From NCBI GenBank assembly GCA_016788705.1, contig JAEUSQ010000050.1, positions 1-64,000 on the forward strand: a DNA stretch of 64,000 bases. The letters are read 5' to 3'. The number at the start of each line of letters is the position of its first letter. Position 1 is the first letter of the stretch. A program made the translations under genes and the position numbers. This document shows, piece after piece, positions 17,822 to 37,243 of the stretch. The notes under the pieces were generated by a model that searched no databases, was not told the origin of the DNA, and saw only the letters and a list, made by a program, of their open reading frames with translations. This DNA comes from Bacteroidetes Order II. bacterium. GTDB taxonomy: Bacteria > Bacteroidota > Rhodothermia > Rhodothermales > UBA2364.

Positions 17822-20176
17822 TTATTTTTTATCGCTAGTCGTAACCCGTATTTTCTTGGACCGACAAATATCCACGCCCATTTTCTCATAGGTTGCCTCA
17901 AGTCCAACGGCGCGAATATCAAAAACACATTCTCCGTTAAACTTAGACAGGTTTACCTGTCCATTGGCGCCCATTGCAGCATCGGCATCTTTGGCATTAT
18001 AGACTTCAGTAAATTTTGCCGTTCCCTTAGGCCGTACCCGAACCGTCATGAGGGCATCTCCATTGGTTGCATTCTCGAACGTCACTCGGCCATAATCGAA
18101 TGCCCCACTGGGAACAGGCGGCGGCGGAACAGGGTTACTATTGTTGTTTTCCACGGTTGGACGACTTTCGGTGAGCGTAAAACGAACATTCGCATTCCGA
18201 CATAAGTCCACATTATTCATGCGGGTAATTTCAGACCGAGTATCATCCAAACGGGTTCCACGTAGATCGAACTCACAATTCCCTCGTTTTAGGCCAGGAA
18301 TCCTCAACGAACCGGATTCGCCATCCTGAAAAGTATAAAGGTCGCTGCCTGCATTTTCCAGAAGGTCTTCGCTCCACTCCTGAGTTCCGGCAGGACGAAC
18401 TTGAAGGTAGAAAATAGTTTCGCCCGTAGCGTTGCTTACGTTTATAGGGTCGCCATCCACCTGAATAGGTTCTTCTTCTGGCTCAGGCGCAGGATCTCCG
18501 CCATCGTCCTCTGGTGCAGGCGTGACGCCCGGATCCAACGTGAGGGTAATATTCGTATTTAGACATAAATCTACGTTGTTTTTTGTGCTCAAAACTTGAC
18601 TTTCATCCAAACGAGTGGCCTTCAGGTCAAAACGGCAATTTCCGGCACGCAGCCCCGGAATCTTCAATGATCCCGTTTCTTGATCCTGAAACGTGTAGAG
18701 ATCGTCGCCAGCATTGGCCAGTAAATCACCACTCCACGTACCAGACCCGGCAGGCCGTACATACAAATAAAAGATGGTTTCTCCCACCTGATTGGTCAAG
18801 GTTATCGGATCCCCCTCTTCGTCTAGTTCCGACGGCTCATCTGGCGCAGAAGGCGTCACCCCATCTGCAAGCGTAAACGTGATGGCATTGTTCCGGCACA
18901 AGTCCACTTTGTTTTTTACGGTTAAGACTTCCGACTCATTCAACCGCGTTCCCTTAAAGTCAAACTTGCAATTCCCCTGGCCCAGCCCTGGAATCATCAG
19001 TGCGCCGGATTCTTCATGCTGGAACGTATAAAGCGTCTCTCCAGCATTTTCTAAAAGGTCTTGCCCCCAGTCTTCGCTTCCGGATGGCCGGGCAAACAAG
19101 TAAAAGATGGTTTCTCCCACCTGATTGGTCACCGTGATTTCTTGGCCGGTGGTTGCTGCCGGTGTTTCCCGGACCACTTCCTCAACCAGAGGGGTTTTGC
19201 GGGTAGTGAGTTTGGGTGTTTTACCAGTTTTATTAAACGTGACGGTTTCGTTTGCGCACAAGTCCACATTTGAGTACGTTTTAATTTCGCCACGGTCGCT
19301 GAGTCCTTTTACCTTAAGATCAAAAACACAGTTGGTTGTGGATAGAAGTGGCAAGCGTAACACATGACTCGATCCATCCGAGATCGTATTTGTCACCCCA
19401 TCAAGGTCTAAAAGATCAGCACCCCAGTCAGGGTCTCCTTTTGCGCGGGCATACACATAAAAGATGGTCTCACCCAATTTGTTTTCCAGGGTGAACGTGG
19501 GTCCGTTTTGCATGGTTCCGTCATCCTGATTCAGATCAGAATCACTGATTACAAACGTGTCGTCTTCGCAAAGATCCCTCTTTTCCCATACAAACAACGT
19601 TTTCTCTTCCAGATCAGTCCCTTTTATATCAAAATAGCAACCGCCTTTCAAAGAGAGGAAAACTTTTTCGGTTTCATTACCTGAAATAACCTGACCAGCC
19701 CCCATCGAATCCTGCCCCCACTCACTCTCCCCTTTGGGGCGCAGGTATAAGTAGAAAATAGACTTATCCGTTTCGTTTTGAAACGTAATGGCCTTCTTAT
19801 CTCCTCCAGCCTCGTCTCCTTCGTCGGATTCTATACGCGTTTCAGGGGTAAATGTCACTGTTTTGTTTCGGCAAATATTTTGGTTTTCCACTTGCCATAT
19901 AGTGGACCCTGCCAAATCGGTTGCACGAAAGGTGAATACACATTTGGCATTAGTTGCCTCGGAAATATTGACGGTAAGCGAGGCCTCGTTTTCCAGCACT
20001 TGGTCCGAGGCCATTAGGTCTTCACTCCATTCATTGGCGCCTTGTGCCTGATAACGCAGGTAGAAAATGGTTTCACTGGTTTTGTTTACCAAAACGGCTG
20101 GTTTGGCTGCCCAAAGTGGGGCAGCCAAACAGGCCAGCAGCAGAAACCCAATGGTGTGGGTCTTAAGAAATTTCAT
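17822..20176 (-). CDS. Secreted protein with seven two-cysteine repeats
   Basis: 784 residues from the ATG at 20176, which opens a clean signal peptide (MKFLKTHTIGFLLLACLAAP, cleaved after LWA). Seven ~100-residue repeats follow, separated by acidic or Pro-rich linkers. Repeat consensus: N-x-(T/V)-GETIFYL(Y/F)-x-RP-x-G-x-x-x-W-x-x-DLL, then GNC-x-FD-(L/F)-x-G/A-T-x-L, then V-DLC-x-N-x-x-x-(T/F). Each unit holds two cysteines (G-x-C-x-FD and DLC), very likely a disulfide. Repeats 4–6 are nearly identical and repeat 7 is the most divergent. Single-copy secreted proteins with a similar N-T-G-x-(T/S)-I-x-x-L-Y-(V/I) and V-(N/D)-LC pattern exist in other bacteria. The role here is unknown. It is the last and longest of three tandem paralogues. 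Confidence 0.8.
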   Translation of the reverse strand: MKFLKTHTIGFLLLACLAAPLWAAKPAVLVNKTSETIFYLRYQAQGANEWSEDLMASDQVLENEASLTVNISEATNAKCVFTFRATDLAGSTIWQVENQNICRNKTVTFTPETRIESDEGDEAGGDKKAITFQNETDKSIFYLYLRPKGESEWGQDSMGAGQVISGNETEKVFLSLKGGCYFDIKGTDLEEKTLFVWEKRDLCEDDTFVISDSDLNQDDGTMQNGPTFTLENKLGETIFYVYARAKGDPDWGADLLDLDGVTNTISDGSSHVLRLPLLSTTNCVFDLKVKGLSDRGEIKTYSNVDLCANETVTFNKTGKTPKLTTRKTPLVEEVVRETPAATTGQEITVTNQVGETIFYLFARPSGSEDWGQDLLENAGETLYTFQHEESGALMIPGLGQGNCKFDFKGTRLNESEVLTVKNKVDLCRNNAITFTLADGVTPSAPDEPSELDEEGDPITLTNQVGETIFYLYVRPAGSGTWSGDLLANAGDDLYTFQDQETGSLKIPGLRAGNCRFDLKATRLDESQVLSTKNNVDLCLNTNITLTLDPGVTPAPEDDGGDPAPEPEEEPIQVDGDPINVSNATGETIFYLQVRPAGTQEWSEDLLENAGSDLYTFQDGESGSLRIPGLKRGNCEFDLRGTRLDDTRSEITRMNNVDLCRNANVRFTLTESRPTVENNNSNPVPPPPVPSGAFDYGRVTFENATNGDALMTVRVRPKGTAKFTEVYNAKDADAAMGANGQVNLSKFNGECVFDIRAVGLEATYEKMGVDICRSKKIRVTTSDKK

Positions 20177-20237
20177 AGGGTTATGATAGCTAACAAGAAA
20201 ATATTTGAAGAAGTATAGATCAAGCAAGCGTCTTGTC

Positions 20238-21542
20238 TTAGCGGAAGGTAACATTGGGATTTCGGCACAAGTCCACATTGTTCAATGTTTTTAGCACCTT
20301 GCTTTTATCCAATGCAGTGGCCTTAAAGTCAAATTTACACGCGCTACGACTAAAGCCCGGAATAGACAAAGAACCTGTTTCTTTATCTTGGAAGGTATAG
20401 AGCACTTCCCCGGCAGTTGCCAACAAGTCCTCTCCCCAATCACTGGTACCGGATTTACGGGCGTAAAGATAAAAAATGGTCTCGCCTATATTATTGGTCA
20501 CCTTTACCTCTTGACCACCATTATTGGCATTGTTTTTGGGGACCAATTCTATATCGTTCATGGTACAGAGGTCAACATTTCGGGCATCTACCAAAATTTT
20601 GTTTTCATCAAGTGCCGTGGCTTTAATATCAAATTTACAATTATTGCGGCTTAAGTTTGGAATGCGGAGTTGTCCACGCTCTCCATCCTGAAACGTATAA
20701 AGTTCTTGTCCAGCAGTCTTTAACAAGTCGCTCCCCCAATCACTCGTTCCACTTTTGCGAAAATACAGGTAAAAAACCGTTTCACCCAATTTATTGGCAA
20801 TGTTAATAGTACCTGTAACCGCAGAACCAGTATTGCCCTGATTGGTATTGCCCCCTTGCCCTGTATTACTTGTTTTTCTGAATGTAACGGATGGATTGTT
20901 GCAGAGGTCCACATTATTAACAAGGGAAAGGATTTTCGATTCGTCTAAAGCTGTTGCCTTAAAGTCGAACCGACAAGTACCATTCCCCAAACCAGGGATC
21001 ACAAGGTTACCAGTTTCATCATCTTGAAAGGTGTAAAGATCCGAACCAGCACCGGCCAAAAGATCACCACTCCAAGAAGACGTACCCGCCGGGCGAACAA
21101 AAAGGTAAAAAATGGTCTCTCCGACGGTGTTAGTAACCTGAATACTGCTCCCACTGTTTTCTGATACCACATCTTGTTCTGGTGCGCTGTCGTATTCAAC
21201 AAAATTATCCTCATCGAAGGTAAAAACCCGGGTTTTACACACATCTGCATTTTCGATAACCCACTCCAATCCAATTTCTTCATACGATGCCGACCCAATA
21301 TCGAACAGACAATTATCAGGTCCTGCGTCTGGAATGGTAATCTTGATTTGTTCACCGTCTTCAAGTGCATCTGATTTCAAAAGCGTTTCGCTCCAGTCTC
21401 CCACCCCAGCTTTACGGAAAACCACCTCATTCAAGGTGTATCCCGTATTATTTTTGATGGTTACGGTACGGGCGGGGAAAGGATTTGCTGCCGTCAGGTT
21501 AAAACCCATAAGCAACAAGAGAAGGGTCATCATGTTTTTCAT
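20238..21542 (-). CDS. Secreted protein with four two-cysteine repeats
   Basis: 434 residues from the ATG at 21542, with signal peptide MKNMMTLLLLLMGFNLTAAN. It holds four copies of the same repeat as its downstream neighbour (cores GETIFYLF, GETVFYLY, GETIFYLY, and a divergent first copy NNTGYTLNEVVFRK). Copies 2–4 also share the extra block YTFQD-x-E-x-G between the two halves. The protein ends exactly at the last strand of repeat 4. The linker between repeats 2 and 3 is Gly/Asn/Thr-rich. It lies 61 bases upstream of the seven-repeat gene and is probably in the same transcript. The high identity among the later repeats indicates recent unit duplication. Confidence 0.8.
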   Translation of the reverse strand: MKNMMTLLLLLMGFNLTAANPFPARTVTIKNNTGYTLNEVVFRKAGVGDWSETLLKSDALEDGEQIKITIPDAGPDNCLFDIGSASYEEIGLEWVIENADVCKTRVFTFDEDNFVEYDSAPEQDVVSENSGSSIQVTNTVGETIFYLFVRPAGTSSWSGDLLAGAGSDLYTFQDDETGNLVIPGLGNGTCRFDFKATALDESKILSLVNNVDLCNNPSVTFRKTSNTGQGGNTNQGNTGSAVTGTINIANKLGETVFYLYFRKSGTSDWGSDLLKTAGQELYTFQDGERGQLRIPNLSRNNCKFDIKATALDENKILVDARNVDLCTMNDIELVPKNNANNGGQEVKVTNNIGETIFYLYARKSGTSDWGEDLLATAGEVLYTFQDKETGSLSIPGFSRSACKFDFKATALDKSKVLKTLNNVDLCRNPNVTFR

Positions 21543-21655
21543 TTCATTATTGTGGGTTGAAGTTGTAGAATAGCGGGTGAGGTGCAATACATGAAGTCTG
21601 ATATAAAATACTTTGCCATAACGACTTTTGGTGCAGAGATGTTGTACGGATTTCT

Positions 21656-21682
21656 AAACCTGTACAGCATTCAGGTTTTTTT
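21656..21682. terminator. Stem-loop after the first paralogue
   Basis: AAACCTG pairs with CAGGTTT, directly below the stop codon of the 21681–22997 gene. The T run is on the plus-strand side, so as a minus-strand terminator it is weak. It may only reduce read-through into the next paralogue. Confidence 0.35.
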
Positions 21683-22997
21683 ATTTTAATAAAAGGGTTT
21701 TGTTTGCACATAAGTCCACACGCTGTATCCGGAGTATTTCCCGGTCTTCGAGGTCTAAGCCGCGGACATCATACAAACAGACCCGGTGATAAAGTTCCGG
21801 CACCAAAATCTCCACTTTTTCCCGTGGAGACAAGGCATTGTCTTCTTGCAAACGGTCGCCCCCCCAATCCCCATCTTCGTTATCATGTTGCCGAATATGG
21901 AGATAAAATATGGTCTGGCGTAAACGATTCTCCATTTCCACTTTGTGCATAACTTGGTCATCAGCAGCATCGACGCCCTCGACCTCCTCCACCTCCGAAT
22001 CATCTTGCATCTCGTCGGTAAACTCAATTTCTTTCTGGGTACAAAGATCAATATCGCGCATAACCCACGCCCTATTTCCTTCCAAATTTGTGGCCTTCAG
22101 ATCAAATCGGCAGGCTGTAGGAGCCAATTCGGGAACCCTCACCGTTGTGGACACTCCGGAGGCAATCGTGCCTCCTTCCCCCAAAAGATCATTTCCCCAA
22201 AAACCCTCTTTCCCGGAAACACGCGCAAAAAGATAAAACACCGTTTCGGAAAGTCCATTTTTCACCCCAACCGAGCGACCCTCCATTTCCATTTCTATCA
22301 TGGGCAACGGATCCAAAAAATCTTTCCCCATCTCATCCAGTGTAATTACAATTTCATTTTTTTCGCATAAATTTTGGTTCCCCACGCGATAAACATCGCC
22401 CTCTTCATCTAATGCACGGATAGAAAATACACATCCCTGTTCCCCAGACAAGTCTATGATTCGGTCACGGTCTGTATTCATCGTCTCGTCTCCCAATCGG
22501 TCGAGGCCCCATGCCTCCACATCATCCGAGATATACACTTCTTCTAACGTAAAACCTGTCCGATTTAGCAGCGTCACTTTTCCAGGATTTTCTTTTATTT
22601 CATCAATCGGTGTTGGTGTGATCATTACTTCGACCATAGGCTGACTCCCCAGACCTTTTTCATGCTGCTGGTTGATCTCCAACTCCGGCTCCACGCATAC
22701 GTCTATTTCCCAAAGTTGAAAGATTTTGCCTTGCCCACTTTCTGCCAAAACATCAACCAAGCAGGCTGTATTGGGCAGTTTTAACACGAGCGTAACAGAT
22801 TTTCCTTTCAGGAGTCGCCCACTACGGAGTTGATTCTCGCCCCATGCAGCATCTGGTACAGATACATAAACGGCAGTCAAATCGTTACCAGTGGCATTAA
22901 GAAGGGTTAAAGACTTGTCTGATACAGTCCCTTGGCCTTTAACAGCAACGGCAGTTGAGGCCCATAACAATATTTGGAACAAAAATCGTGCTTTCAT
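21681..22997 (-). CDS. Secreted protein with four divergent two-cysteine repeats
   Basis: 438 residues with signal peptide (cleaved near AVAVKGQ). Four repeats of the same family as the two downstream genes, but more diverged: N-terminal copies read NATGNDLTAVYVS and NRTGFTLEEVYIS, and C-terminal copies SETVFYLFAR and RQTIFYLHIR. The cysteine pair is kept in each (for example TACRFDL with DIDLC). Linkers are acidic (Asp/Glu-rich). It is the first gene of the three-paralogue run and its divergence suggests it is the oldest. The upstream region is shared with a divergent cell-wall amidase gene. Confidence 0.78.
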   Translation of the reverse strand: MKARFLFQILLWASTAVAVKGQGTVSDKSLTLLNATGNDLTAVYVSVPDAAWGENQLRSGRLLKGKSVTLVLKLPNTACLVDVLAESGQGKIFQLWEIDVCVEPELEINQQHEKGLGSQPMVEVMITPTPIDEIKENPGKVTLLNRTGFTLEEVYISDDVEAWGLDRLGDETMNTDRDRIIDLSGEQGCVFSIRALDEEGDVYRVGNQNLCEKNEIVITLDEMGKDFLDPLPMIEMEMEGRSVGVKNGLSETVFYLFARVSGKEGFWGNDLLGEGGTIASGVSTTVRVPELAPTACRFDLKATNLEGNRAWVMRDIDLCTQKEIEFTDEMQDDSEVEEVEGVDAADDQVMHKVEMENRLRQTIFYLHIRQHDNEDGDWGGDRLQEDNALSPREKVEILVPELYHRVCLYDVRGLDLEDREILRIQRVDLCANKTLLLK

Positions 22998-33336: not shown

Positions 33337-33357
33337 TAACCTATAAGCTCTACTTCC

Positions 33358-33388
33358 AAGCCCTCGGTATTTATCGGGGGCTTTTTTT
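33358..33388 (+). terminator. Terminator of the yqiJ-like/flotillin operon
   Basis: AAGCCCTCG pairs with CGGGGGCTT (one T·G) and is followed by seven T. Confidence 0.88.
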
Positions 33389-33491
33389 GTGCCCTTTAGT
33401 ACGGCCCACGAGCATGGTATCAGCAATTAAAAGGCAGAAATAAAAATAAGATTGTCGGTTCTCATGTATTTCATTTGCATTTACTACATTA

Positions 33492-33908
33492 ATGGAATAT
33501 TATTTTTCCGTTTTACACTTTAATTATTCCACCTTGAAAATATCGGTCCAAATAGTATTGGTCCTCATGCTTGCCCTTCAACCGCTGAGTGGGCTGGTGA
33601 CGCAGATTGCATTCAAGGTCAACCAACAATACATCGCACGCACGATGTGTATCAATCGGTTCAAGCCTAAAATGAACTGCAAGGGGACTTGTGTTTTGAG
33701 CCGACAACTAAAAAAAGCAGCAGAACAACAAAGCAACCCAGTCAAACAAAACAAGGAGCAGTCTGAAGTATTGTATTTTATTGACTTGAGTATTGCACCT
33801 TCGTGGGCAAAAGGTATTTCGGAGATGACGACAAATCCTTTCCCGCAGTCTTCTGCCTATCATGAATCTCTTTTCTCGGCAGACATCTTCCATCCGCCCC
33901 GCATTTAA
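33492..33908 (+). CDS. Small membrane/exported protein with conserved Cys motif
   Basis: 138 residues: an N-terminal hydrophobic helix (about 15–35), then a cysteine block CINRFKPKMNCKGTCVLSRQ, i.e. C-x-N-x3-(K/P)-x3-C-x-G-x-C-x-L. I recognise this block from small Bacteroidota proteins encoded near metal-uptake or TonB genes; no function is established. A Lys/Gln-rich stretch (QLKKAAEQQSNPVKQNK) follows, and the tail lacks similarity. Three closely set Cys suggest metal or redox chemistry in the periplasm (inference). It opens a run of envelope genes leading to the oxidase-like protein. Confidence 0.6.
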   Translation: MEYYFSVLHFNYSTLKISVQIVLVLMLALQPLSGLVTQIAFKVNQQYIARTMCINRFKPKMNCKGTCVLSRQLKKAAEQQSNPVKQNKEQSEVLYFIDLSIAPSWAKGISEMTTNPFPQSSAYHESLFSADIFHPPRI

Positions 33909-34238
33909 TTCTCCTCTCAGGTACCCAATGTTTAACCCGGCAAACCTGACCGAGCGGCTCCTATTTTCAGTAGTTGGCATTGTGAAAGGAGCTTTTCTTA
34001 GCCTACGCCTTTCCTGTGTACGCACCATGATCGTTTGGTATTAACCACTACTCCCACATCATGTTGTTTAAGGGCCGCCAATGGTTATAGATTGGGTTCA
34101 TACGGATAGATCAAAATAATTACCTTTTTTCAATATTACCCTGTCTTTTATTTACATTAAAAGGCAAGAATACATATGTCTTTTTTTGCGTAGCTTGGCA
34201 AATATGGCCAGATGTATTACGGTATTAATCTTTAAATA
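33909..34238. other. Intergenic region before the short helical exported protein
   Basis: 330 bases without a convincing gene. A 60-codon frame (33862–34044) overlaps the previous gene and looks spurious. Near 34164–34200 there is an AT-rich stretch with TTTTTTTGCGTAGCTTGG, reminiscent of Bacteroidota promoters (TTTG plus TAnnTTTG), but the match is imperfect. Confidence 0.4.
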
Positions 34239-34655
34239 ATGCTCAACATGAACAACATTTTTAGGATCTTAACATTCCTTTTTTTAGGATTTTTTAATCT
34301 GGTAAATGCCCAATCTCTTTTCGGCAATTGGCCTGAATTGGGATTATACCACGATGTCCTATCTACTACCTTCCATCCTTCCGAGAATGGAGACACCGCA
34401 CCGATCAAGGCAAAGTCGGGTGAGCTTGCTTCTTGGGCACAAAAAGTAGCGGGCAAACCAATTCCTACGCCTTACGATACGCGGCCTATGCGCAAGACCA
34501 TTCAAAAACTAAAGAAAGAGAGTGTTAAAATGGATCGTATGGTTCGCAAGGGAAGGGCCAGCGAAGCCGCAATAATTGCACAGCTTTCCAAAACCCACGA
34601 TGTTTTTCACGAGGTGATCCGTTTGTCTAAGGAACCCCACGAAGACCATCATTGA
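34239..34655 (+). CDS. Exported short helical protein, unknown
   Basis: 138 residues with a signal peptide (cleaved near LVNAQ). The mature part begins WPELGLYHDVLSTTFHPSENGDTAPIKAKSGEL and continues in amphipathic helices to a His-rich C-terminus (HEVIRLSKEPHEDHH). I have seen similar secreted Bacteroidota proteins (W-P-E-L, F-H-P-x-E-x-G, K-x-x-S) predicted to be four-helix bundles. The conserved His/Glu near the start and the His-rich tail are compatible with metal binding (inference). It lies 137 bases upstream of the His-rich DUF2911 lipoprotein. Confidence 0.55.
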   Translation: MLNMNNIFRILTFLFLGFFNLVNAQSLFGNWPELGLYHDVLSTTFHPSENGDTAPIKAKSGELASWAQKVAGKPIPTPYDTRPMRKTIQKLKKESVKMDRMVRKGRASEAAIIAQLSKTHDVFHEVIRLSKEPHEDHH

Positions 34656-34792
34656 TGCTTCAGGCACTTTCTTTCATGATATACCCCCAATTTTAATCCG
34701 ACACTTTGGCCCGATAAACAATCAACCATTGGTCATGAAAGAAAAAAAGATGTCCTAAAACAATAACCAGCAACCCCATTAAGGACCTCATC

Positions 34793-35422
34793 ATGAAAAT
34801 ATATGTATTTACCGTTTTTACCGTTGTCTTTACCTTTTCTCTGACTGCGTGTCAAGATCACCAGCAAGATCATAAAGCCCACCAAACACCGGATCAAAAA
34901 GCAGCAACCACACCCAAGCATGACCATAGCACCCACCACCACAGCCAAGAAACGGTAACAGACACCACAAAAGGCAGCATTCCCCAAACGGCTATGACCA
35001 ATCTGGGCAGTAACCATGTCCATATTGCTTATACCGCGCCTGCTGTTCGCAATCGGATCATCTGGGGCGGCTTGGTGCCATACGACCAAGTTTGGGTGAC
35101 AGGCGCACACCAAGCCACCTCCATTTCACTCGGAAAAGACGTGCTAATCGGCGGGCAACGCCTACCGAAAGGGAAATATGCCCTATTTACCATTCCCGGA
35201 AAACAGGAATGGATCGTGGTCATCAATAAAAACTGGGATCAGCACCTTACCGATGAATACAGCGAAAAAGAAGATGTTTTACGGATTCGGGTAAAACCCC
35301 AAACCAACCAACCCCATACCGAGCGCCTCACGTATCGCATTAACAACAAAGATACCAACACCGCCGATTTGGAAATTGTCTGGGAAAAGCTTAAAATTGC
35401 TTTAGTGATAACCAATGCCTAA
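34793..35422 (+). CDS. DUF2911 lipoprotein with His-rich linker
   Basis: 209 residues. A lipobox-type signal ends SLTAC (Cys about residue 20), so the protein is lipid-anchored. A His/Gln/Asp-rich linker follows (QDHQQDHKAHQTPDQK, then HDHSTHHHSQ), which may chelate metal. The C-terminal domain is DUF2911: VHIAYTAPAVRNRIIWGGLVPYDQVWVTGAH, then LPKGKYALFTIPG, then WIVVINKNWDQH. DUF2911 is a Bacteroidota-centred domain of unknown function. The ATG at 34793 has AAGGA seven bases upstream. Next gene starts 34 bases later: probable operon with the oxidase-like gene. Confidence 0.85.
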   Translation: MKIYVFTVFTVVFTFSLTACQDHQQDHKAHQTPDQKAATTPKHDHSTHHHSQETVTDTTKGSIPQTAMTNLGSNHVHIAYTAPAVRNRIIWGGLVPYDQVWVTGAHQATSISLGKDVLIGGQRLPKGKYALFTIPGKQEWIVVINKNWDQHLTDEYSEKEDVLRIRVKPQTNQPHTERLTYRINNKDTNTADLEIVWEKLKIALVITNA

Positions 35423-35455
35423 GGGCTAGCTGAAGAAAAAATCAACCTATTTCAA

Positions 35456-36973
35456 ATGATCATGGAAAACGTTATGCCCTCGCCGCTACAAAATCCGGCG
35501 ACAACCACCCCCCAAACGACGGTACCCCGCACGGGAATCGGATCTTGGCTCTTAACTGAAGACCATAAACGTATCTCGTTGATGTTCTTAGGATCGGCCC
35601 TGTTCTTCTTCCTCTTGGGTGCTATCTTGGCCATTGTCGCAAGGCTGGGACTGCCTGATGCAGGATACCCGTTTCTTTCGCAGACCGCCTATACCCGGCT
35701 GATGGAGGCCCACGGAACCATCATGGTTTTGCTGTTTGTCATTCCCGCCATACCCGCCACACTGGGCGCTTATTTTTTGCCAAATTTATTGCATAGCCGC
35801 AACCTGCCCTTCCCAAGGCTCCACCTCATGAGCTTATACCTTTATTGGATGGGCGGTATTTTTGCGCTTATCGGCTCTTTAGCCAGTGCCACCCCAATAG
35901 GATGGACGATGATTGAGACTTTTTTTACCGATGACCCAACTCTATTTGCTGTCGTATGGCTCGGATCGGGTATTCTCACACTTGGTGCATCGGCAGTGTT
36001 ACGGAGTATCAACTTTGTGGTGGCCATACATAAAATGCGGCCTATTGGGATGTCGTGGCAAGACCTTCCTTTATTTGTATGGGGACTCTATATTTCGGCA
36101 GCCATTCAAATTGTCGTAATGCTGTTGATGGGCCTAAGCAGCCAGTTGTTGATCCTTGAAAAAACCTTACAATTGGGTTTATTTGATCCCAAGTTGGGTG
36201 GCGACATCTTGTTGTACCGCCACTTTTTCTGGTTTGCTGCTTATCCGGCTGTATATAGTGCTCTCTTGCCTGCAATAGGACTCATGGCCGATGTTTTAGC
36301 AGGATCTACCGGAAGACACGCATTTGGAAGGCCATTTCTGGTTTGGATGATGGGCACTTACGGAATATTGAGTTTTATGGTATGGGGACAACAATTTGTA
36401 AATGCCGGACAATCTGAGTTTGCTTCTATTTTGTTTGCTGCTTTTGCCAATCTGGCGCTTGTCCCTTTAGCAGTTGTGGTTGCAAATATGTTAACCTCTC
36501 TTTATCAAAGTAATCTTGAATTGCGCACACCGATACTATATGTATTTACATTCTTATTTATGCTTACGGTATCGCTGATTAGTTCTTTGGTACTGGGTGC
36601 CCTAAATGTCTCCTCGTATCTGGGTACCACCACGTATGCCACAGCACAATTCCATTACATGATGTTAGGTGGCTTGACAATTGCCTTTCTGGGTGGACTT
36701 CACTACTACTGGAAGCATATTACAGGGACCAATTACCACGAAAGTGTGGCCCAATGGGCTATCGGTCTGATGTTTTTAGGCATTAACGGAACGTTTTTTA
36801 CCCTCATGGTGATGGGTAGCAATGGCTTGGAACAACGGACATACGCCTATCCCGAGATGTTTGGAACCTTTCAGGTCTTGACCACCTTATCCGCTGTCTT
36901 ACTTGGCCTAGGGATTATCATAACCTTTGCGAACCTGATTTGGAGTTTAGCCTCTAAAAAGCAGAAAAATTGA
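35456..36973 (+). CDS. Heme-copper oxidase subunit I homologue lacking the binuclear centre
   Basis: 505 residues with about 12 membrane helices, aligning along the whole length with aa3-type cytochrome oxidase subunit I. Both low-spin heme ligands are kept: His86 in EAHGTIM and His400 in AQFHYMM. Every binuclear-centre residue is gone. FGHPEVY reads AAYPAVY (261–267), so CuB His becomes Tyr263 and the proton-pump Glu becomes Ala265. HH in the next helix reads Gln312-Gln313 (VWGQQF). The high-spin heme His reads Gln398. Oxygen reduction by the known mechanism is therefore impossible; a single b-type (or a-type) heme is plausible. No subunit II or III is adjacent. Function unknown: electron shuttle, heme sensor or gas binder are possibilities. 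Confidence 0.85.
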   Translation: MIMENVMPSPLQNPATTTPQTTVPRTGIGSWLLTEDHKRISLMFLGSALFFFLLGAILAIVARLGLPDAGYPFLSQTAYTRLMEAHGTIMVLLFVIPAIPATLGAYFLPNLLHSRNLPFPRLHLMSLYLYWMGGIFALIGSLASATPIGWTMIETFFTDDPTLFAVVWLGSGILTLGASAVLRSINFVVAIHKMRPIGMSWQDLPLFVWGLYISAAIQIVVMLLMGLSSQLLILEKTLQLGLFDPKLGGDILLYRHFFWFAAYPAVYSALLPAIGLMADVLAGSTGRHAFGRPFLVWMMGTYGILSFMVWGQQFVNAGQSEFASILFAAFANLALVPLAVVVANMLTSLYQSNLELRTPILYVFTFLFMLTVSLISSLVLGALNVSSYLGTTTYATAQFHYMMLGGLTIAFLGGLHYYWKHITGTNYHESVAQWAIGLMFLGINGTFFTLMVMGSNGLEQRTYAYPEMFGTFQVLTTLSAVLLGLGIIITFANLIWSLASKKQKN

Positions 36974-36998
36974 TCTTTAAGGATATGGTGAAACAGGG

Positions 36999-37033
36999 AA
37001 TGGCCGCGAGTCCTCCATGATCGGGGCCATTTT
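36999..37033 (+). terminator. Terminator of the oxidase-like operon
   Basis: AATGGCC pairs with GGCCATT, followed by TTTT; the loop is 19 bases. Confidence 0.65.
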
Positions 37034-37243
37034 CTCTATACGCTTGCAACATCCTGAAGGGTTCCATCCTATAACGGTATGGCAACTGGTTTTGTGACTG
37101 TTTGTTAAGAGCGTCTAAACATCTTAATAAAATCGCATTGTGAAAGCCGCAAAGTTGTAACAATTCCCAAAATGCGGCGGTGTAGTTTACATCCAACCAA
37201 ACACCGGATCATATTCTACACAACAATTATAAGGAGTAACACA

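Follow-up and report, generated by a model that had tools for sequence, protein, structure and literature searches.

A putative non-catalytic CtaD paralogue beside a metal-type periplasmic gene block in Bacteroidota

Work on the heme-copper fold has dealt almost exclusively with oxygen and NO reductases. A published classifier of heme-copper oxygen reductases discards sequences without six conserved histidines, NORs are identified by their H-X-Arom-X-E and H-H motifs and histidine metal ligands, and the A2-type oxidases have a Tyr in place of the helix-VI Glu (PMC3084760). A classifier of this kind drops sequences that lack the six histidines before anyone can see such proteins. We found no description of a ligand-free heme-copper oxidase paralogue under selection in the open-access literature, which is weak evidence. 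Herein, we compare such a candidate with the systems named above and with the genes that surround it.

The CtaD-like protein and its replaced residues

The window, that is, the whole stretch of 64,000 nucleotides analysed, contains an unbroken ORF at 35456-36973 (+), which encodes a CtaD-like protein of 505 aa. We describe it as non-catalytic on the basis of COX1/CtaD homology, residue alignment and dN/dS. The Pfam family COX1 (PF00115) matched the protein end to end (260 bits, E 5e-77, profile positions 1-435 of 436), and the protein was collinear with residues 24-497 of the caa3 subunit I of T. thermophilus (PDB 2yev). The top NCBIfam match was CtaD_CoxA, with 362.6 bits, under the equivalog cut-off of 670.75. 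These matches bear out the full-length similarity to subunit I that an earlier sequence-only reading of this DNA had proposed, and the motifs and residue numbers given there were as stated. Judged from sequence only, the protein has the COX1 fold with about 12 transmembrane helices. On these matches it is assigned as a CtaD_CoxA homologue, not an equivalog, and as an A-type heme-copper oxidase subunit I by fold and family. An AlphaFold2 model from the protein and its one orthologue (a two-sequence alignment) reached a pLDDT of 43, and no CtaD relatives that could deepen the alignment were found in a scan of viral contigs.

The residues were compared using 30 active CtaD sequences of the order as the reference. 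Both histidines of the low-spin heme, H86 and H400, were present. All three CuB histidines were replaced (Y263, Q312 and Q313), and the histidine of the high-spin heme had become Q398. The alignment thus verified the replacements first noticed by eye, and two of the six histidines of heme-copper oxygen reductases were found. Under the six-histidine definition, the CtaD-like protein is therefore not a heme-copper oxygen reductase, though it is of the COX1 family by fold. The earlier claim that a pump Glu had been lost as Ala265 proved mistaken, as Ala is ancestral: every readable aligned active CtaD of the order reads YSHPAVY (HPAV) at this site, as in A2-type enzymes. In the CtaD-like protein, the Tyr-Ser pair of this motif was lost and reads A261 and A262.

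The losses extended to the proton channels and to the Mg site. In the K channel, Lys was replaced by V341, Thr by L338 and Ser by A278; in the D channel, Asp was replaced by N116 and the two Asn by A105 and H123, and the D-channel Tyr of the A2 type was also gone. A functional set of D or K channel residues was therefore not found, while the cross-link tyrosine Y267 was retained. At the Mg/heme a3 propionate site, G390 and T391 stand in place of His and Asp. The Arg equivalent to bovine R438, which is salt-bridged to the heme a3 propionate, is Q460, and the equivalents of bovine R38, which is hydrogen-bonded to the heme a formyl, and of bovine R439 are retained as R63 and R461 (PMC12901375). 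Also retained were M90, Y79 and F399 around the low-spin heme, and W150; Y388 of the low-spin heme pocket was lost. In addition, H113, H123 and H421 are histidines gained relative to active CtaD and common to both orthologues; judged by homology, they probably lie on the cytoplasmic side.

Of a selection of residues made by us, the protein retained 6 of the 7 tied to the low-spin heme and 2 of the 18 tied to the binuclear centre, the channels and the Mg site (Fisher p=0.001). Relative to all near-invariant positions, the binuclear set was depleted (p=0.0004), whereas retention of the low-spin set was only marginally over the general level of about 50% of invariant positions (p=0.06). Overall, the protein retained 121 of 240 near-invariant CtaD positions. 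The notion of a well-kept 12-helix scaffold must thus be toned down. A retained low-spin heme site is plausible, and we infer one bis-His heme held by H86 and H400. As R63, the Arg in contact with the heme a formyl, is kept, this heme would probably be heme A; the genome encodes a heme A synthase.

Orthologue, selection and origin

A single orthologue, 90% identical, was found in one other member of the genus, the MAG Bacteroidetes bacterium UBA2364 (DDTM01000031; NCBI lineage Bacteroidota Order II). The orthologue had identical replacements and the same neighbours in the same order. Since the same replacements recur at 90% identity in an independent genome, they are due neither to chance nor to an assembly error. 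There was no orthologue in the third congener (G002), and no further one among 114 genomes of the order or 394 genomes of the phylum. In a scan of 84,980 species, in which an exact 7-residue match was required, the GQQF/AQFHYMM pattern occurred only in UBA2364. A match to the degenerate pattern in another genome (G209) was rejected because it sits in an unrelated HxlR-like protein.

The dS between the two orthologues was 0.52, compared with 0.55 for the real ctaD. The dN/dS of the CtaD-like gene was 0.108 and that of the real ctaD was 0.004; the neighbours in the block had higher values (0.13-0.19). At the 121 retained ancestral positions, a single change separated the orthologues (dN/dS 0.006), compared with 17 changes in the 106 positions that no longer have the ancestral residue and 34 in the other 276. 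With an unbiased definition, in which the ancestral residue is kept in either orthologue, the counts were 4 in 124 and 48 in 379 (p=0.002). Furthermore, the stretches around residues 263 and 312 were practically unchanged between the two species. The CtaD-like gene evolves faster than a working oxidase yet is clearly constrained, and there is no decay. The proposal of selection for another function, made before any orthologue was at hand, is strengthened by these values.

The nearest relative of the CtaD-like protein was the genus's own CtaD (42-44% identity, 437 bits), and proteins of other genera scored at most 388 bits; these scores suggest that ctaD may have been duplicated within this lineage. 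The tree joined the protein to the genus's CtaD with a support of only 93/80 and on an extremely long branch. Three ordinary heme-copper proteins are encoded elsewhere in the genome, namely a caa3 CtaD and, as identified from motifs, a CcoN-like (cbb3-type) and a NorB-like protein. The caa3 CtaD lies in a full operon, far from the CtaD-like gene, with alternative complex III-type, Sco-like and subunit II-, III- and IV-like genes (named by eye). Given this operon and the two other heme-copper proteins, respiration is independent of the CtaD-like gene.

The four-gene block and its copper-type relatives

The CtaD-like gene is the last of a block of four genes (33337-37102) that is present in this genome and in UBA2364 and absent from G002. 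The block starts with a small exported or membrane Cys protein (MCINRFKPKMNCKGTC; 33492-33908, +) with the pattern CINR...MNCKGTC. It is followed by a 138-aa periplasmic four-helix bundle (34239-34655, +), a neighbour that the sequence-only reading had missed, and by a His-rich, lipoprotein-like DUF2911 protein (PF11138; 34793-35422, +). The spacing between the DUF2911 gene and the CtaD-like gene is 33 bp here and 38 bp in UBA2364, where the order is the same. Neither a signalling domain nor a regulator was found within the block, and no other oxidase subunit gene adjoins the CtaD-like gene. A terminator-like hairpin, a consensus match only, lies between the flotillin gene and the block (33358-33383, +), and a promoter scan gave nothing better than shuffled sequences.

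In G002, the left flank (X-Pro peptidase, YqiJ-like and flotillin genes) and the right flank (Spy-like, DUF3298, 560-aa protein and BatD-like genes) are on different contigs (C32 and C3). DNA similarity to G002 runs as far as the 3' end of the flotillin gene, is lost there and is regained near 37103, shortly ahead of the Spy-like gene. The sister species differ by a rearrangement whose breakpoint falls at the block. The Spy-like gene was rejected as a block member because it occurs without the block in G002. Thus, of the neighbours to which the CtaD-like protein had been linked, DUF2911 and the Cys protein stand, being in the same block in both genomes and having relatives in copper loci, but the Spy-like lipoprotein does not. 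Elsewhere in the window, three adjacent genes at 17822-22997 (818, 449 and 438 aa) share the repeat GETIFYL-x-x-R-x-x-G...WG-x-DLL.

The relatives of the neighbours were examined in other loci. MbnP and MbnH are copper proteins. Paralogues of the Cys protein in the same genus adjoin MbnP (PF20243) and CCP_MauG genes. A DUF2911 relative in G002 (C24) is in an operon with a multicopper oxidase, an HMA-MauE protein, an AraC-type regulator and an HMA-DUF3347 protein. In the same genome, an ORF (L052, 2239-5127) joins a SAM methyltransferase domain and a multicopper oxidase in one frame of 962 aa.

The 138-aa protein has no Pfam family. Its homologues were found in 31 of 385 genomes of the phylum (E<=0.01; loci L079-L086 and L089-L100), and H38, H46, H120 and H124 were invariant in all 14 aligned sequences, in the pattern H-x7-H-P ... 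H-x3-H. The protein was modelled as a four-helix bundle with a pLDDT of 81. The bundle occurs alone or fused to a periplasmic Fe/Mn superoxide dismutase or a DJ-1/PfpI domain, and this Bacteroidota family is a probable metal-binding one. DUF3347 was rejected as a relative because it gave no match. Kinship with cytochrome c'/b562 was likewise rejected, the likeness being a fold resemblance only (Z of about 10.7), within the chance range for helical bundles.

In another Bacteroidota genome (G177), genes for a DUF2911 protein (41% identical), CCP_MauG, MbnP, a DJ-1/four-His fusion, a TonB receptor and a Cys protein are consecutive within 8.5 kb and have the same direction (G177:C1:289001-303000, locus L094, 3947-12420). 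This locus is a candidate copper-acquisition cluster that would give the DUF2911 and Cys families a context. Three of the four block genes therefore associate elsewhere, in a copper-type locus. Co-location with known copper genes was found for the relatives of the neighbours but not for the CtaD-like gene itself, which was in none of the copper-type loci examined. Since these loci have no oxidase-like gene, the case for a partnership comes from gene position in two genomes.

Proposed role and comparison with known systems

We propose that an A2-type CtaD paralogue has been turned into a non-catalytic membrane protein. It would still have the fold of subunit I and the low-spin heme site with its two histidines, and neither CuB nor a high-spin heme could bind. 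Having no D or K proton path of a known kind, the protein would presumably neither reduce O2 nor pump protons by known paths. It may act in a periplasmic metal module with the Cys protein, the four-His bundle and DUF2911, the metal being most likely copper. The single heme would then link the metal site of the partners to the membrane pool or a cytochrome and relay electrons between them, e.g., to set the Cu(I)/Cu(II) state. In subunit I, the low-spin heme is near one membrane face, and transfer across the membrane through one heme is therefore not expected. A different, undescribed job for the protein is probable. That this job is a single-heme redox role for periplasmic metal carried by the neighbours is the reading we prefer, tentatively and with appreciable doubt. 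We hold with still more reserve the fuller statement that a subunit I has become a non-oxidase, single-heme redox part of a periplasmic copper module and would be the first natural example of this fold that has no binuclear centre at all and is clearly selected.

Several other explanations were weighed against this redox role. The protein could be a regulatory or assembly pseudoenzyme that occupies the CtaD position of hetero-complexes or is a competitor for heme A, for CtaG/Sco-type factors or for subunits, and so tunes caa3 assembly to the copper supply. The shared fold, the genus's own CtaD as the closest relative (42% identity; 437 versus at most 388 bits) and the copper-type neighbourhood speak for it, but the caa3 operon is far off with no oxidase subunit adjacent to the gene, the Mg/propionate residues of the interface with subunit II have been lost, and evolution is far faster than that of CtaD (dN/dS 0.108 versus 0.004); we consider it unlikely. 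We are similarly doubtful of a heme-free membrane protein, a channel or sensor for metal or small molecules in which the two histidines are merely left over. Given that 121 of 240 near-invariant positions were retained, two given histidines would be kept in about one case in four, and the gained H113, H123 and H421, common to both orthologues, also fit such a protein. Against it, Arg63, Met90, Tyr79, Arg461 and Phe399 near the low-spin heme are retained as well, and the retained class is nearly unchanged between the species.

It seems rather improbable that the protein uses a heme to sense or bind gas (O2 or NO), or that it stores heme in the high-spin site left vacant, options that the sequence-only reading also offered. 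The binuclear cavity may persist, and its lining (Y263, Q312, Q313, Q398 and Y267) is the same in both orthologues, but a high-spin heme would find no ligand there, a bis-His low-spin heme normally binds no gas, and the block is without a signalling domain or regulator. Least credible, and very improbable, is that the gene is a decaying pseudogene, or a neutral remnant of a ctaD duplication. Such a relic would account for the loss of every catalytic residue, the rapid evolution and the occurrence in two genomes only. It is at odds with an ORF unbroken in both genomes, with a dN/dS that is not above that of the block neighbours and falls to 0.006 at the retained ancestral positions, and with the unchanged active-site stretches.

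If the redox reading is true, a selected version of the fold with one heme site would mean that the fold is useful without catalysis. The protein would also be a natural single-heme mutant, with which heme a spectroscopy and electron entry could be separated from the contributions of heme a3/CuB. That it lies next to three families of metal-binding proteins also hints at an undescribed part of how Bacteroidota handle copper.

Steap/FRE-type proteins are single-heme metal reductases in which electrons go from a heme in the membrane to a metal outside the cytoplasm. The analogy with the CtaD-like protein is one of the proposed principle only, as the fold is unrelated and the CtaD-like protein has no flavin domain. 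MbnP/MbnH-type copper loci of Bacteroidota contain relatives of the Cys protein, the four-His bundle and DUF2911; the block in the window has no MbnP, MauG-type or TonB gene but has the CtaD-like gene. NorB, qNOR and the NO dismutase Nod are of the same superfamily and likewise have an altered active site. In contrast to the NORs, the CtaD-like protein has YPAVY and GQQF, with both histidines of the HH pair replaced by Gln, and is not recognised as a NOR. Compared with the A2-type caa3 subunit I of T. thermophilus (PDB 2yev), it is without the CuB ligands, the high-spin heme His, the D and K residues, the Mg site and the C-terminal extension, and no subunit II, III or IV genes lie alongside. 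The two proteins are alike in their full-length homology, the HPAVY-type motif (Pro, Ala and Tyr267), the histidines of the low-spin heme and the formyl Arg.
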